NCBI GenBank assembly: GCA_035295165.1
Contig: DATGJN010000110.1
Span: 1-39,425 of the forward strand
Direction of reading: 5' to 3'
Length of the DNA stretch: 39,425 nt
Origin: a bacterium
GTDB lineage: Bacteria; Sysuimicrobiota; Sysuimicrobiia; Sysuimicrobiales; Segetimicrobiaceae
This document shows, one piece after another, positions 27,913 to 34,144 of this stretch. The stretch's first letter is position 1, and every line of letters begins with the position of its first letter. The position numbers and the translations under genes are program-made. The notes under the pieces were generated by a model, which was not told where the DNA came from, did not search any database, and saw only the letters and a list, made by a program, of their open reading frames with translations.

Positions 27913-29646
27913 CTAGGTCCCTCCGGACACGCGCTCCTCCTCGGGGCCCGGTGAACCGGCGGCGGCGCCGAGGGGATCGGCGGACGCGGCCGCCGGCTCG
28001 TCCCGCCGCGCGTCATCCGCGACCGCGCGGGCGTGCCGCAGCGCCGCGGCGACGAAGTCCCGGTACAGGGGATGCGGCCGGTTTGGCCGGGACCGATACT
28101 CCGCGTGGAACTGTGTGCCGAGGAACCACGGATGATCCGCAAGCTCCACGATCTCCACGAGATTCCGCTCCGGGTACAACCCCGTGACCCTGAGCCCGTG
28201 GCGCGTCAACACGGCGAGATAGTCGTTGTTGACCTCGAACCGGTGCCGGTGGCGTTCCTGCACGTCGTCGACGCCGTACGCGCGGTGCGCGAGTGAGCCC
28301 GGCGCGAGCCGGCACGGGTACAGGCCGAGCCGCATCGTGCCGCCCTTGTCGGTGACCGCCTGTTGTTCCGGCAGGAGGTGGATCACCGGGTGCGGCGTGC
28401 CGGGATCCACCTCGGTCGTGTTGGCGCCGTCCAACCCGCAGACGTGCCGCGCGAACTCGACGACCGCCCACTGCATGCCGTAGCAGACGCCGAAAAACGG
28501 CACGCGCTGCTCACGGGCGTAGCGAACCGCCTTGACCTTCCCCTCGACCCCGCGCGCGCCGAACCCGGGGCACACGAGCACCCCGTCGCATTCCTGGAGC
28601 CGGGCGGCGACCACGGACGCGTCGAGCCCCTCGAGTTCCTCGGAGTCCAGCTTCACGATCCGCACGCGGCAGCCGGCGGCGATCCCGCCGTGCCGCAGCG
28701 CCTCTTCGATGCTGACATACGAGTCCTCGTTCCCCATGTACTTACCGACCAGGGCGATCCGGATCGTCGCCTCCGGGTGCAGGAGCCGGTCCACCATTCG
28801 GCGCCACTCCGAAAGGTCGGGCGGACGGACCGGAAGGTGGAGGCACCGCTCGGCCTGCCGGGCCAGCCCTTCCTCTTCGAGGATGAGCGGGACCTCATAG
28901 ATGCTCGGCGCGTCGATCGCCTGGATCACCGCGTCGGGTTCGACGTCGCAGAACAGCGCGAGTTTCTCGCGCACGCCGCGGCCGAGCGGACGCTCGGTCC
29001 GGCAGACGATCACGTCGGGGTGGATGCCGATGCTCCGCAGTTCCTTGACACTGTGCTGCGTCGGCTTCGTCTTCAACTCACCCGCGCCGCGCAGGTACGG
29101 GATCAGCGAGACGTGGATGTACATGACGTTCCCTTCCCCCATCTGCCGACGGAACTGCCGGATCGCCTCGAGAAACGGCAGGCTCTCGATGTCACCGACG
29201 GTCCCGCCCACCTCGACGATGATGATCTCCGCGGTCGCTTCGCGGGCGACGCGCGTGATCTCGTCGCGGATCTCGTTCGTCACGTGCGGGATCACCTGCA
29301 CGGTGCCCCCAAGGTACTCGCCCCGGCGCTCCCGCGCGATCACCGTGCCGTAGATCTTTCCCGTCGTGGTGTTGTTGTCCCGGCACAGGTTCTGGTCGAT
29401 GTAGCGCTCGTAGTGACCCAGGTCCATGTCCGTCTCCGCACCGTCGTCGGTGACGAACACCTCGCCGTGCTGGAACGGGTTCATCGTCCCGGCGTCCACG
29501 TTCACGTAGGGGTCGAACTTGAGGAGCGTCACGCGCCAGCCCCGGCTCTTGAGCAGTCGCCCGAGCGACGCCGAGGTGATGCCCTTGCCCAGTGCGGACG
29601 TCACGCCTCCAGTCACGAAGATGTACTTGGTCGCCTGCTGCGTCAT
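27913..29646 (-). CDS. pyrG: CTP synthase
   Basis: Amidates UTP to CTP with glutamine or ammonia. 577 aa with a 35-residue Ala/Pro/Glu-rich C-terminal tail beyond the usual end. The synthetase domain is standard: [14 protein letters not shown] (10-23), [26 protein letters not shown]. The glutaminase triad is C388 (GVCYGMQ), H514 and E516 (QFHAE). The loop that normally reads V-PGGFG is here VCPGFG at 358-363, so one glycine of the usual pair is proline. GGGAGGGG lies about 10 bases before the ATG. It follows nadK by 40 bases in the long operon. Confidence 0.95.
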
Positions 29647-29686
29647 CGGCTGCGTCCCCTCCCCCCCCGCCGGCGCGGGTTGCGCA

Positions 29687-30565
29687 TCATCGCTCGCCCC
29701 ACAACAGCTTCGTCCGAAGCACCGTGTAGAAGCCCTCCCGCCCGAGCCGGATCAACCGCGTCCGGTGCGGCGACCGCGCGGCGCGGACCTCGTCGTCGGC
29801 CTCGAGCGGAAACCCCTTCTGTCCATCCACGGTGAGCATCGCAGGAGGGGGCGGCGCGCCGACGGGATCCACGCGCACGACGACGGTGTCGCTGGCGGAG
29901 ATCACGACAGGGCGCGCGTTGAGGGTGTGCGCGCAGATCGGCGTGAGCACCATCACGTCCACCGCTGGGTGGACGATGGGGCCTCCCGCGGAGAGAGAGT
30001 AGGCGGTCGACCCCGTGGGCGTCGCCACGATCAGCCCATCGGCGAGATGCGTCGCCAGGAGCTCGTTGTTCACAAACGTCCTGAGGCGCAGCACGCGCGC
30101 GTATCCGCTCTTCGTCACCACGATGTCGTTGAGCGCCAACACCTCGTGGACGGCGTGCCCCGCGCGCAGCACTTCCGCGCGCAGCATCATGCGCTCGTCC
30201 AGGTGGTAGTCGCCCGCGAGCAGCCGGTGGAGCGCCTCCTCGACATCCGCGTCGTTGACCTCGGCGAGAAAGCCGAACCCCCCGAGGTTCACGCCGAGGA
30301 TCGGGATCCCGCGCGGCCCCGCCTGGCGCGCCGCGCTGAGAATCGTCCCATCGCCGCCGAACACCACGAGGACGTCCACGCGGGCGGCGAGCTCGCCTTC
30401 GGGCACGCCGAGCGCCGGGCACTCCAGCCCGGTGGCGCTCTCCTCGTTCACCACGACGGCGACGCGCCGCGCTTCGAGCACGGCCACCGCCTCGCGCGCG
30501 AGTCGGGCCACCTCGCGGTTGGCAGCGAGCTTCTGCGGATTGACGAGGAGCCCGATCGTCGTCAT
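29687..30565 (-). CDS. nadK: NAD kinase
   Basis: ATP- or polyphosphate-dependent NAD to NADP phosphorylation. 292 aa. GGDGT at 70-74 is the nucleotide-binding and catalytic motif. [25 protein letters not shown] and [17 protein letters not shown] are the other conserved blocks. The ATG at 30565 overlaps the tlyA stop as ATGA, so the larger frame reaching into tlyA is not used. The tlyA-nadK pair is a common neighbourhood in Gram-positive-like bacteria, usually followed by recN, which is absent here. Confidence 0.94.
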
Positions 30566-31434
30566 CCCCGCCCCCGGTCCGCCGGTGTTGCGGGCGTACG
30601 ACGGCCGGCCGAGCTCGGCCGGCCGAGCCGCGCGTGGGCGTCGGCCACCACCGCGTCGATGTCGACCGGCGCCGACGGCTGGGCGGCGCGCAGGTGCACC
30701 AGGTACTCGATGTTGCCGGCCGGGCCGGTCACCGGCGACGGCGTCGCGTCGACGGCTACGAGCCCGTGTCCCTGCGCGGCCTCGAGTACGTCGCGCAAGA
30801 CGGATGCGTGCACCGCCGGATCGCGCACGACGCCTCCACGTCCGACCTGCGCCCGTCCGGCCTCGAACTGGGGCTTCACGAGCGCGATTACGTCGGCGCC
30901 GGGGCGGAGGAGCCGCGCGATCGCCCCCCACACGAGCCGCAGGCTGATGAACGCCAGGTCCACGGTCACGAGATCGCACGGACCGCCGACCTGGTGGGGC
31001 TCGAGGTAGCGGGCGTTGACCTCGTCGAGGACGGTCACGCGGGGATCGGTCCTGAGGCGCCACGCCAGCTGGCCGCGGCCGACGTCCACCGCGTAGACGT
31101 GTGCGGCGCCGTGCCGCAACAGGCAGTCGGTGAATCCGCCGGTGCTCGCCCCGAGATCCACGGCCGTTCGTCCGTCCACGCCCACCCCAAACGTCGTCAA
31201 CGCGTGGACGAGCTTGAGCCCGCCACGGCTCGCGTACTCGCGCCCCGGTCCGTGCAGGACCACGCGGGCCGCCGCTCCCACGCGCCGCCCCGGTTTGTCC
31301 ACGCGCTGGCCATCCACGGTCACCGCGCCGGCCATGATCACGGCCTGCGCCTCTTCTCGGCTCGCCGCGTGCCCGTGCGCGACGAGCCACTGGTCGAGCC
31401 GGCTTCCCGACACCGCCACGGCGCGCGCGCTCAT
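30562..31434 (-). CDS. tlyA: TlyA family rRNA methyltransferase
   Basis: Predicted 2'-O-methyltransferase of 16S/23S rRNA cytidines. 290 aa. An S4 RNA-binding domain (SRLDQWLVAHGHAASREEAQ, 10-30, to about 60) is followed by an FtsJ-like fold with YASRGGLKL (68-75, with the catalytic lysine), the SAM motif VDLGASTGGFTDCLL (92-106) and LVKPQFEAGR. This two-domain form is typical of TlyA. The ATG at 31434 overlaps the ispA stop (ATGA). Whether it methylates both subunits cannot be told from sequence. Confidence 0.92.
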   Translation of the reverse strand: MSARAVAVSGSRLDQWLVAHGHAASREEAQAVIMAGAVTVDGQRVDKPGRRVGAAARVVLHGPGREYASRGGLKLVHALTTFGVGVDGRTAVDLGASTGGFTDCLLRHGAAHVYAVDVGRGQLAWRLRTDPRVTVLDEVNARYLEPHQVGGPCDLVTVDLAFISLRLVWGAIARLLRPGADVIALVKPQFEAGRAQVGRGGVVRDPAVHASVLRDVLEAAQGHGLVAVDATPSPVTGPAGNIEYLVHLRAAQPSAPVDIDAVVADAHARLGRPSSAGRRTPATPADRGRG

Positions 31435-32345
31435 CGCTCCCGGGACAACAGGAACAACGCGAGATCCCGCAGGCGATCGCCCCGCGCGCCGACGGGCGCG
31501 AGCGAGTCGACCGCGCGGCGGGTTGCGTCCTCGGCGAGCGTCCGCGACCGCTCCAACCCGAAGACCGACGGGAACGTCACCTTGGCGAGCGATGCGTCGC
31601 TGCCGGTCTCCTTGCCGAGCTTCACCTGCTCCCCGACGACGTCCAGGATGTCGTCGACGATCTGGAACGCGAGCCCCACGTGCTCCCCGTAGCGGTCCAA
31701 CACATCCAGCGTGTCCTGGTCGGCGCCGCCGAGGATGCCGCCGATCCGGACGCACGCGCGGATCAGCGAGCCGGTTTTGAGCCGGTGAATCCGTCGCACT
31801 GCGGCCTCGTCGAGGGGCCCGCCGACCGCGAGCAAATCCAGGACCTGGCCGCCCACCATCCCGGCGGTCCCAATCCCCTGCGTCACCTCCCCGATCGCGC
31901 GGAGGACGCGGTCCGGCGCGCACCCCGGTACCTCGGCGTTGCGCACGAGCAACTCGAACGCAAGCGCGTGCAGCGCGTCGCCCGCCAGCACCGCCATCGC
32001 TTCCCCGAACAGCACGTGGCACGTTGGCCGACCGCGGCGGGTCGGCGAGTTGTCCATCGCGGGGAGATCGTCGTGGATCAGGGAGTAGGTGTGAATCAGC
32101 TCGACCGCACACGCCGACGGCATGACGTCATCGGGGGGCGCCCCGGCCACGCCGGCGCCGGCGATGACGAGAATGGGCCGCAGTCGCTTGCCTCCGGCGA
32201 ACACGCTGTGGCGCATCGCTCGGTGCACGGTTTCGGGGGAGGTGTCGGCCGAAGGGAGACACCGATCCAGCGCGTCCTCGACGAGCCGGCCGTGCTCGGC
32301 GAGGTACGTTTCAATATCGGCCGGGCGGCGTGACGTTCCTTTCAT
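31431..32345 (-). CDS. ispA: Short-chain polyprenyl diphosphate synthase (farnesyl/geranylgeranyl)
   Basis: Condenses IPP with allylic diphosphates. 304 aa, the size of IspA. GGKRLRP at 51-57, the first aspartate-rich motif in HDDLPAMDN (91-99) and the second, DDILD (231-235), are intact, and KTGSLI binds IPP. The ATG at 32345 is preceded by AGGTGAGA, better than the GTG two codons upstream. Residues before the first aspartate motif (HTYSLI) fit FPP or GGPP length. The product supports quinone and undecaprenyl synthesis. Confidence 0.92.
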   Translation of the reverse strand: MKGTSRRPADIETYLAEHGRLVEDALDRCLPSADTSPETVHRAMRHSVFAGGKRLRPILVIAGAGVAGAPPDDVMPSACAVELIHTYSLIHDDLPAMDNSPTRRGRPTCHVLFGEAMAVLAGDALHALAFELLVRNAEVPGCAPDRVLRAIGEVTQGIGTAGMVGGQVLDLLAVGGPLDEAAVRRIHRLKTGSLIRACVRIGGILGGADQDTLDVLDRYGEHVGLAFQIVDDILDVVGEQVKLGKETGSDASLAKVTFPSVFGLERSRTLAEDATRRAVDSLAPVGARGDRLRDLALFLLSRER

Positions 32346-32351
32346 TCTCAC

Positions 32352-32636
32352 CTAACGGATACAAAACTCCCGCGTGCCCGGGACGACGCTTGCGCCGTCC
32401 GACGCGTCGGTCCACTCCGCTTGGACGTCGCGCACCCACGCACCCGCGGGCCCTTGGCGCAACGTGGACACCAGGGACTCCAGCGCGCGCCGACCGCCCT
32501 CCGCGAATACTTCCACGCGACCGTCCGGCAGGTTGCGGACGTAGCCATCGAGCCCGAGACGCCGGGCTGCGTGCTGCGTGAAATACCGAAACCCCACGCC
32601 CTGTACCCGTCCCGAGACGAACGCGCGGACATGCAT
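32352..32636 (-). CDS. acyP: Acylphosphatase
   Basis: Hydrolyses acyl phosphates such as carbamoyl or 1,3-bisphosphoglycerate phosphate. 94 aa. The family signature [13 protein letters not shown] carries the catalytic R17, and N35 in GYVRNLPDG is the second catalytic residue. The C-terminal GTREFCIR matches the F-x-I-x end of the family. The ATG at 32636 lies 16 bases after the nusB stop; a longer frame upstream does not match. The gene occupies the place between nusB and ispA where xseA/xseB often sit. Confidence 0.92.
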
Positions 32637-32652: not shown

Positions 32653-33075
32653 TCACACGTCGGCCGCCTGTTCCACCAGCGGGGGCAGACCGGACCGCAC
32701 AACCTTGCCAAGCAACCCGTTCACGAAGCGGCCGGACTCCTCGGTGCTGTACCGCTTCGCCAGTTCGACGGCCTCGTTGATCACGACGCCGACGGGTGTG
32801 CCGGAGGTTTCGAGCTCGAAGATCGCCATGCGGAGAATGTTTCGGTCGACCGTCGCCATGCGCTCCAGCGTCCAGTGCTCGGCCACAAGCGCGATCAGCG
32901 CATCGATCGCCGTGAGGTGCGCGCGGGTGCCCCGGGCCAGGGTCACGATCAGGCTCCAGTCGTCGGGCGGCCACTCCTGGCCACGGGCCGACGCGAGCGC
33001 CTCTTCGAGCGACAGCTTCCCGAGATCCATCTGGAACAGGACCCCGAGCGCCGCCTCCCGTGCCCGCCGCCGCAT
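32653..33075 (-). CDS. nusB: Transcription antitermination protein NusB
   Basis: Binds boxA RNA with ribosomal protein S10 to promote rRNA antitermination. 140 aa, all-helical. [19 protein letters not shown] at the start, [14 protein letters not shown] in the middle and [29 protein letters not shown] near the end are the conserved NusB blocks. The ATG at 33075 has TTGGTGA just before it; a GTG two codons upstream is possible. It opens a ten-gene operon down to punA and is preceded by its own promoter and a structured leader. Confidence 0.93.
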
Positions 33076-33089
33076 CGTCACCAATCCAG

Positions 33090-33192
33090 AGAGGGCGTTC
33101 CAAACAAATTGACCACCGCAACGGTGGTCAGATTTGTTGCCGGGAGATCCGCACGGCGCACCGCTGCCGCCCACGCTCCCGAGTTGCCCTCT
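33090..33192 (-). promoter_or_regulatory. Candidate structured RNA leader of the nusB operon
   Basis: Minus-strand leader of about 120 nt between the promoter and nusB. P1 pairs AGAGGGC (33192-33186) with GCCCTCT (33096-33090), closing the element. P2 pairs CGGGAG with CTCCCG and can hold an inner GGCG/CGCC stem. P3 is a 16-bp hairpin: AACAAAT, one bulged C, TGACCACCG, loop TTG, CGGTGGTCAATTTGTT (33138-33103). The SD-like GGTGA lies just after P1. It matches no riboswitch, T-box or ribosomal-protein leader that I know. The central TGACCACCG palindrome could also be a DNA operator. Confidence 0.5.
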
Positions 33193-33196
33193 AGCA

Positions 33197-34144
33197 CTAT
33201 CGTATTATACCCGGTCCCACCGCGGCAAGCAACTCCCGCACGCGATCCACGTCGGCCCGAATCTGCCGCACCAACGCGTCGCCCCCGGGAAACGTGCGCT
33301 CTTCTCGGATCTGCTGGACGAACGACAGCGTGATCTCCTGTCCGCACAGATCTCCGTCAAACCCCAGCAGATGCGTCTCGACGGCGACCGCGCCGCCGCC
33401 GAACGTGGGCCGACGGCCCACGTTTGTCGCGCCGCCGTAGCGGCGCCCTCCGGCATCGACGACCGTGGCGTACACACCGAGCCCGGGCAACACCTTTCTC
33501 GCGGGCGGCAGCAGGTTCGCGGTGGGAACCCCGATCGTCCGCCCGCGCCCGTCGCCCCTGACCACGGGACCACGCAGACTGTACCAGCGGCCAAGCAGGC
33601 GGGTGGCCTCGTCCACCAGGCCCTCCCGCAGCGCGCTCCGGACACGGCTGCTGCTCACCGGCTCGCCACTGACCAACACCGCCGGGACGAGATGGACCGC
33701 TACTCCCGTGGCGGACCCCCACGCGGCGAGGCGTGCCGCCGTCCCCTCACGGCGATAGCCGAACGTGTACGACGACCCAGCGACGATCTCCCGTGCCCGC
33801 AGTCGCTCCGCGAGGATCTCGTCGAGCCACGCCTGTGCGGAGATGCGGGAGAATTCGAGGTTGAACGGCAACACCACGGTCGTGTCCGCCCCGGCCTCCG
33901 CGAGCAACGCCAGCCGCTCATCCAACGTCGTCAGCAGCACCGGGTCGCTGCTGGGGCGCAGCACCTCAACCGGGTGCGGATCGAAGGTCACGGCAACCGC
34001 GGTCCCCCCAATCGCCCGAGCGCGGGCGACGGCGGCGCCGATCACCTGGCGGTGCCCGAGGTGGATCCCGTCGAAGGTGCCGAGCGCGAGCACCGGGGAC
34101 GCAAGATCGACGGGAACCTCAGCGAGGCCGCGCGCGGTGCGCAA
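33197..34144 (-). CDS. ribF: Bifunctional riboflavin kinase / FAD synthetase
   Basis: Makes FMN from riboflavin and FAD from FMN. 315 aa. GTFDGIHLGH at 22-31 is the nucleotidyltransferase motif; SSSRVR (about 164-169) ends that domain. The kinase domain from about 180 has VVRGDGRGRTIGVPTANL. The start is a TTG at 34144: it overlaps truB by 26 bases, has GGAGGGAGGAG four bases upstream, and the resulting N-terminus (RTARGLAEVP) matches the family. The last codons (Gly-Ile-Ile-Arg) contain the nusB -10 box. FAD supply suits the neighbouring flavoprotein genes but is housekeeping. Confidence 0.93.
   Translation of the reverse strand: MRTARGLAEVPVDLASPVLALGTFDGIHLGHRQVIGAAVARARAIGGTAVAVTFDPHPVEVLRPSSDPVLLTTLDERLALLAEAGADTTVVLPFNLEFSRISAQAWLDEILAERLRAREIVAGSSYTFGYRREGTAARLAAWGSATGVAVHLVPAVLVSGEPVSSSRVRSALREGLVDEATRLLGRWYSLRGPVVRGDGRGRTIGVPTANLLPPARKVLPGLGVYATVVDAGGRRYGGATNVGRRPTFGGGAVAVETHLLGFDGDLCGQEITLSFVQQIREERTFPGGDALVRQIRADVDRVRELLAAVGPGIIR
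33204..33232 (-). promoter_or_regulatory. Promoter inside the ribF 3' end, reading into nusB
   Basis: On the minus strand a perfect TATAAT (33209-33204) lies 17 bases after TTGCTT (33232-33227). TATAAT is conspicuous in this GC-rich sequence. The expected start site is near 33196, about 120 bases before the nusB ATG, so the nusB operon has its own transcript separate from infB-ribF. Confidence 0.6.

Follow-up and report, generated by a model that had tools for sequence, protein, structure and literature searches.

What does the RNA ahead of nusB do in an uncultured soil bacterium, and how would it control the genes that follow? NusB is an rRNA antitermination factor, and its gene is the first of a presumed operon (Table 1) in the window, i.e., the whole 39,425-base stretch of DNA that was analyzed. 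Before this operon lies a conserved, unlisted leader of ~120 bases. The host probably belongs to the phylum CSP1-3/Sysuimicrobiota, which is described in PMC11604079.

The initial annotation had placed the start of a structured regulatory leader at a TATAAT box on the minus strand. This box was found at 33209-33204, and a conserved leader running from that promoter into the nusB operon was supported by the relatives. The reading that we favor, and consider moderately probable from sequence comparison, is that the leader acts as a ribosome-gated, pyrBI-type transcription attenuator on a leaderless mRNA and is translationally coupled to nusB.

Table 1. Features of the nusB leader and operon in window coordinates
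Feature	Position	Strand	Basis or remark
nusB, first gene of the operon	32653..33075	(-)	Pfam PF01029 NusB, E = 1.9e-33
Rest of the presumed operon: acyP, ispA, tlyA, nadK, pyrG	27913..32636	(-)	Pfam (acyP, ispA); order kept in relatives (tblastn)
Leader promoter, -10 box TATAAT	33204..33209	(-)	Sequence; inside the 3' end of ribF
Short ORF, GTG 33197-33195 to TGA 33080-33078, 39 codons	33078..33197	(-)	Translation; predicted leaderless start at +1
P3 hairpin TGACCACCG-TTG-CGGTGGTCA, terminator-like stem inside the short ORF	33110..33130	(-)	Conservation and folding
T-rich run TTTGTTT after P3	33102..33108	(-)	T enrichment in leaders with P3
Overlapping junction GTGACGATG: TGA stop of the short ORF with GTG and ATG nusB start candidates	33073..33081	(-)	Sequence

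The leader was compared over 43 genomes of the order, including the 12 of the home family (f1). A NusB protein search retrieved nusB from 41 of the 43 genomes, and its upstream region was readable for 40. The leader was present in all f1 (12/12) and f2 (10/10) genomes, in the one f5 genome (1/1), and in nine of 10 f6 genomes; in the same comparison of 40 upstream regions, it was absent from f4 and f7. In f4 (L130 and L131), a -10-like TACAAT or TAGAAT is found only 9 bases before the nusB ATG, and the sequence suggests that nusB of this family has little or no 5' UTR. RibF, TruB, AcyP, and IspA were confirmed by Pfam, and the genes that we take to be tlyA, nadK, and pyrG were named by sequence recognition without a profile. 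The gene upstream of the leader is ribF in f1; outside f1, the upstream frame ends like what is presumably elongation factor P (C-terminus read by eye). As the upstream gene is ribF in f1 and another one elsewhere, the leader stays with nusB.

A second copy of the leader module was found in genome G003, where ispA has left the nusB operon and is preceded, on another contig, by this copy (L069/L100, G003:C248:42971-43042, minus strand). The copy consists of TATAATACCACA-ATG, a 46-codon ORF, P3 with two changes, and a T-run. The replacement of GTG by ATG is in keeping with a start codon more than with an invariant RNA motif. Judging by this ispA copy, the leader module is portable.

At the 5' end of the leader, TATAATACNNT[AG]GTGC was kept in 12/12 family genomes, and TATAATACNNTRNTG occurs a single time in the 4.8-Mb home genome. 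With one mismatch allowed, searches for the promoter motif and for the 5' motif GTGCNGGRCCACCCACG gave chance levels only; exact copies of GTGCNGGRCCACCCACG numbered seven, every one at nusB. The -10 box is followed by six bases and GTG in all 12 family leaders and also in leaders of f2, f5, and f6, where the spacing was fixed by one search pattern and the other sequences were read by eye. This is the spacing of a leaderless mRNA, with the start codon at +1 and 6-7 bases past the -10 box, and the transcript would thus begin at the GUG start codon or one base before it. TATAAT-N6-RTG was enriched across the family, with 143 sites versus 42 when the spacer was 11 bases and 19 when the pattern was reversed (each count being a sum over separate family searches), as expected if leaderless genes are common in the family, with which the enrichment is consistent. 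The ribF stop codon TAG shares one base with the GTG (TAGTG, 33195-33199), and read-through transcripts could, given this overlap, hand ribosomes from ribF to the short ORF and on to nusB.

The GTG opens a short ORF that spans the leader down to the nusB start and was missed by the initial annotation. What had been taken there for an SD-like GGTGA is the TGA stop of this ORF, and it overlaps a GTG at which nusB might start. Outside genus g2, 24 of 26 leaders had the first stop of the GTG frame within -30 to +10 of the nusB start; the other two frames reached the nusB start in 0/31 and 2/31 leaders. The end point of the GTG frame was kept despite widely differing leader lengths, and the longer leader of G024 carries an open 89-codon frame down to a GTGA junction. 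Junctions in the relatives read ATGA, GTGA, or TGATG, or have the stop a few bases upstream of the nusB start. Exceptions were G040, in which a tandem duplication of the P3 tail moves the short-ORF frame into nusB itself, and G015 (f5), in which the ORF stops past P3, 81 bases before nusB. The G040 duplication (L139) covers about 33 bases, including the P3 tail.

No constraint on the peptide was observed for the short ORF: substitutions were spread evenly over the codon positions (48/45/43), and the synonymous share in the GTG frame was no higher than in the wrong frames. A conserved functional small protein was rejected for the lack of codon-position bias in the substitutions. As the frame and stop are kept while substitutions are even, the frame and end point, not the peptide, appear to be selected.

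A further conserved element is the P3 hairpin. TGACCACCG-N3-CGGTGGTCA forms, as the initial annotation had noted, a perfect palindrome (21 bases, 33130-33110), and the pattern TGACCACCN{3,8}GGTGGTCA has P3 as its sole match in the home genome. The hairpin has 16 pairs, a TTG loop, and the core GACCACC/GGTGGTC. It was present in 12/12 family genomes and in 27/32 leaders of the order. The exact palindrome occurs once per family genome, always before nusB, and G003 has the extra copy with two mismatches. The layout common to the 12 family leaders is TATAATACNNT[AG]GTGC, ~60 variable bases, and CTGACCACC-N5/6-GGTGGTCA-[AG]T[TC][TC]G[TC]TT. A GTDB-wide scan for P3 plus its tail retrieved six family members and three unrelated records. 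Palindromes found in G026 and G042 were rejected as leader copies, as they lie among unrelated genes.

P3 alone folds at -15 kcal/mol here and at -15 to -17 kcal/mol over the 12 genomes, and a terminator scan picks it up. In the ten bases past its 3' arm, the share of T was 62%, compared with a background of 12% in the first 60 leader bases, and a T-rich tail was present in all leaders with P3. The element thus has the make-up of an intrinsic (Rho-independent) terminator, a G+C-rich hairpin with a T-rich run directly after it, and transcription would presumably terminate there. The reading frame of P3 relative to the GTG varies between groups, so that P3 is kept as nucleic acid, not as peptide. 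Its second pair is A-U, G-U, or G-C, depending on the family. The short ORF runs into or through the hairpin in genera g1, g3, and g4 of f1, in f2, in f5, and in the f6 leaders that carry P3.

The comparison of relatives establishes that the GTG frame, its stop/start junction with nusB, P3, and the T-run are kept, as are the distances between them. We infer that initiation is leaderless, that transcription terminates at P3, that translation is coupled to nusB, and which way the control runs. The attenuator would work as follows. RNA polymerase would start at the GUG or one base before it, and ribosomes would load directly at the 5' end and translate a short ORF whose peptide sequence is free to vary. 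P3 with its U-rich run, when free, would be an intrinsic terminator; a closely following ribosome would cover or unwind P3, and transcription would continue. In genus g2, the ribosome would stop on the 5' arm of P3 or just before it. Elsewhere, the ribosome would end at the ATGA/GTGA junction and pass to nusB by translational coupling. With slow ribosome loading, P3 would fold, and the nusB-acyP-ispA-tlyA-nadK-pyrG operon would be cut off.

Terminators located towards the end of an ORF are repressed by ribosomes in E. coli; within the first 100 bp, this repression is poor unless the polymerase pauses (PMC4824070). Gating would therefore need a close first ribosome or a pause, and as P3 lies at the edge of this first-100-bp range, read-through would be sensitive to the loading speed of the first ribosome. 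A more tentative extension, which we hold to be rather unlikely but not negligible, is a leaderless-specific ribosome sensor: since the short ORF could be started only by ribosomes loading on a bare 5' end, the attenuator might report ribosome supply without a ligand or regulatory codons and set the expression of NusB and TlyA accordingly, as well as that of the operon's genes for isoprenoids, NAD, and CTP.

The strongest competitor, which we regard as rather unlikely but not negligible, is that the leader serves coupling only: the short ORF would bring ribosomes from the leaderless 5' end to a nusB without a good ribosome-binding site, and P3 would be a pause or mRNA-stability hairpin. It is favored by the stop/start junction, which in the sequence comparison is the best-kept feature of the leader, and by three f6 leaders (G020, G026, and G041) in which the short ORF is kept without P3, so that the ORF and the hairpin are separable. 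The T-run of f1 (TTTGTTT) is also weak; because it is short and interrupted, P3 in this family may act as a pause site or terminate only weakly. Yet the tail in f2 is a full terminator run (GTTTCTTTTTT), and P3 with its T-run is placed at a near-constant distance from the GTG, at 62-74 bases, in f1, f2, f5, and f6. Genus g2 also speaks against coupling only, since its ORF ends at P3, whereby coupling is lost and P3 is kept: the GTG frame stops at the UGA within CUGACC at the base of P3 in three genomes and 5-6 bases before P3 in two.

A protein or other trans-acting factor that recognizes the P3 RNA stem and controls termination or translation, with the short ORF as incidental, is less probable again, and we consider it improbable. 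The P3 arms vary very little over 30 sequences, a near-invariance that, on these alignments, exceeds the need of a plain terminator, and each family genome has one P3 site. However, the loop varies freely in both sequence and length, there is no candidate factor, and conservation of the ORF frame would be left unexplained. In f2 and f6 leaders (e.g., L136, L115, and L127), the first codons GTGCTGGACCACCCACG repeat the 5' arm of P3 and can pair with the 3' arm; this 5' end could act as a competitor for the 3' arm. In G023, this pairing is altered on both sides (GACCACCG/CGGTGGTC), and the local 5' arm is lost. The 3' arm contains GGTGGTCAG, a 9-mer of 16S helix 12 in most of the order (e.g., L059 and L061). 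Mimicry of, or pairing with, 16S was rejected because the G029 and G035 leaders keep GACCACC while their 16S has GACGATC; the match is not maintained and was judged coincidental. The family 16S genes used here were located by pattern search, as a 16S covariance-model search gave none.

The absence of boxA also argues against such a factor. Autoregulation by Nus factors acts through boxA in suhB and, as predicted, in ribH-nusB (PMC5725501), and the element studied here similarly lies ahead of a Nus factor gene. In four family members, the boxA of the rRNA leaders is CCTTGAAAACTGCATAGTGG or closely similar to it, whereas the best boxA match in the nusB leader was at shuffle level, and thus, unlike in the known cases, the leader gives no evidence for NusB/E binding. 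NusB binding at TTTGTTT as a boxA was rejected against the boxA read from these four rRNA leaders. In the rRNA leaders of the order (L049-L067), a strongly conserved boxA-like stretch (approximately CCTTGAAAACYGNATAGTGGYAAGG) lies shortly downstream of the rRNA promoter.

The initial annotation had offered, as an alternative, a DNA operator, i.e., a palindrome binding a dimeric repressor downstream of the promoter. The palindrome is perfect and its half-sites are conserved; however, the half-sites are separated by 4, 5, 6, 11, or 12 bases across families (5 versus 6 within two genera) and not by a fixed spacing, the promoter lies 32 bases away in the ispA copy versus 62-74 elsewhere, and the element always lies within the predicted transcript with the T-run after it, on the transcript strand only. 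An operator is therefore very unlikely.

The structure outside P3 was evaluated by folding. As had been annotated, the minimum free energy structure of 33200-33070 has all three helices, including a P1 of 7 bp (AGAGGGC 33192-33186/GCCCTCT 33096-33090). This 131-base stretch folds better than its shuffles (z = -3.7), mostly due to P3; when only the sequence outside P3 was shuffled, z was -1.7 here and -1.7 to +0.8 over the 12 genomes, and P1 and P2 are therefore near chance. The proposed folded P1-P2-P3 regulatory RNA did not hold up: of the pairs expected to be conserved and to covary in relatives, P3 is kept, with slight formal covariation, and P1 and P2 are not, the sequence around them diverging freely. 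The initial annotation had also reckoned with relatives keeping only the P3 palindrome, which is half the case, as P3 is kept, yet together with the promoter, GTG frame, T-run, and stop/start junction. Its statement that the leader fits no known class was borne out, as nothing in the window reached the Rfam gathering score and the matches obtained on relaxing E to 10 were at chance level. A ligand-binding riboswitch or multi-helix autoregulatory leader built from P1, P2, and P3, although the home sequence folds well into three helices and the P1/P2 pairing recurs within the genus, is scarcely credible, given the chance-level structure outside P3 over 12 genomes, the lack of an Rfam match, and the unconserved sequence between the GTG and P3.

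Leader-ORF attenuators and leaderless short ORFs are already known kinds. In E. coli pyrBI, the terminator lies inside the 135-bp leader ORF pyrL (Roland et al. 1988, as described in PMC4824070). The nusB leader likewise has a short ORF with a putative intrinsic terminator towards its end, and in pyrBI termination is prevented by a ribosome that closely trails the polymerase. Unlike pyrL, the ORF here is predicted to be leaderless, precedes nusB, and has a stop overlapping the next gene; the likeness rests on the layout, not on nucleotide sensing. Leaderless short-ORF attenuators of mycobacteria, in which the ORF at the 5' end of the operon mRNA controls the downstream gene, encode polycysteine regulatory codons (Canestrari et al. 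2020, cited in PMC13236596); the nusB leader shares the position of such an ORF, but has neither a conserved peptide nor an evident codon run. Amino-acid operon leader peptides (trp, his, and ilv type, e.g., ilvB1, PMC13236596) also combine a leader ORF with a terminator; in contrast to these, no regulatory codon run and no conserved antiterminator were found in the nusB leader, and the terminator-like stem lies inside the ORF, not after it. In the literature searched, no such attenuator was described before nusB, nor one with only the frame and end point conserved.

If this attenuator reading is true, translation would gate the expression of a core factor of rRNA transcription in an uncultured phylum. 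The leader would also offer a naturally occurring ORF in which selection acts on the frame and end point, not on the peptide, and could be a clean system for studying the speed of ribosome loading on leaderless mRNA relative to the polymerase. ORFs of this kind, overlooked by gene finders, would be detectable via frame conservation alone.
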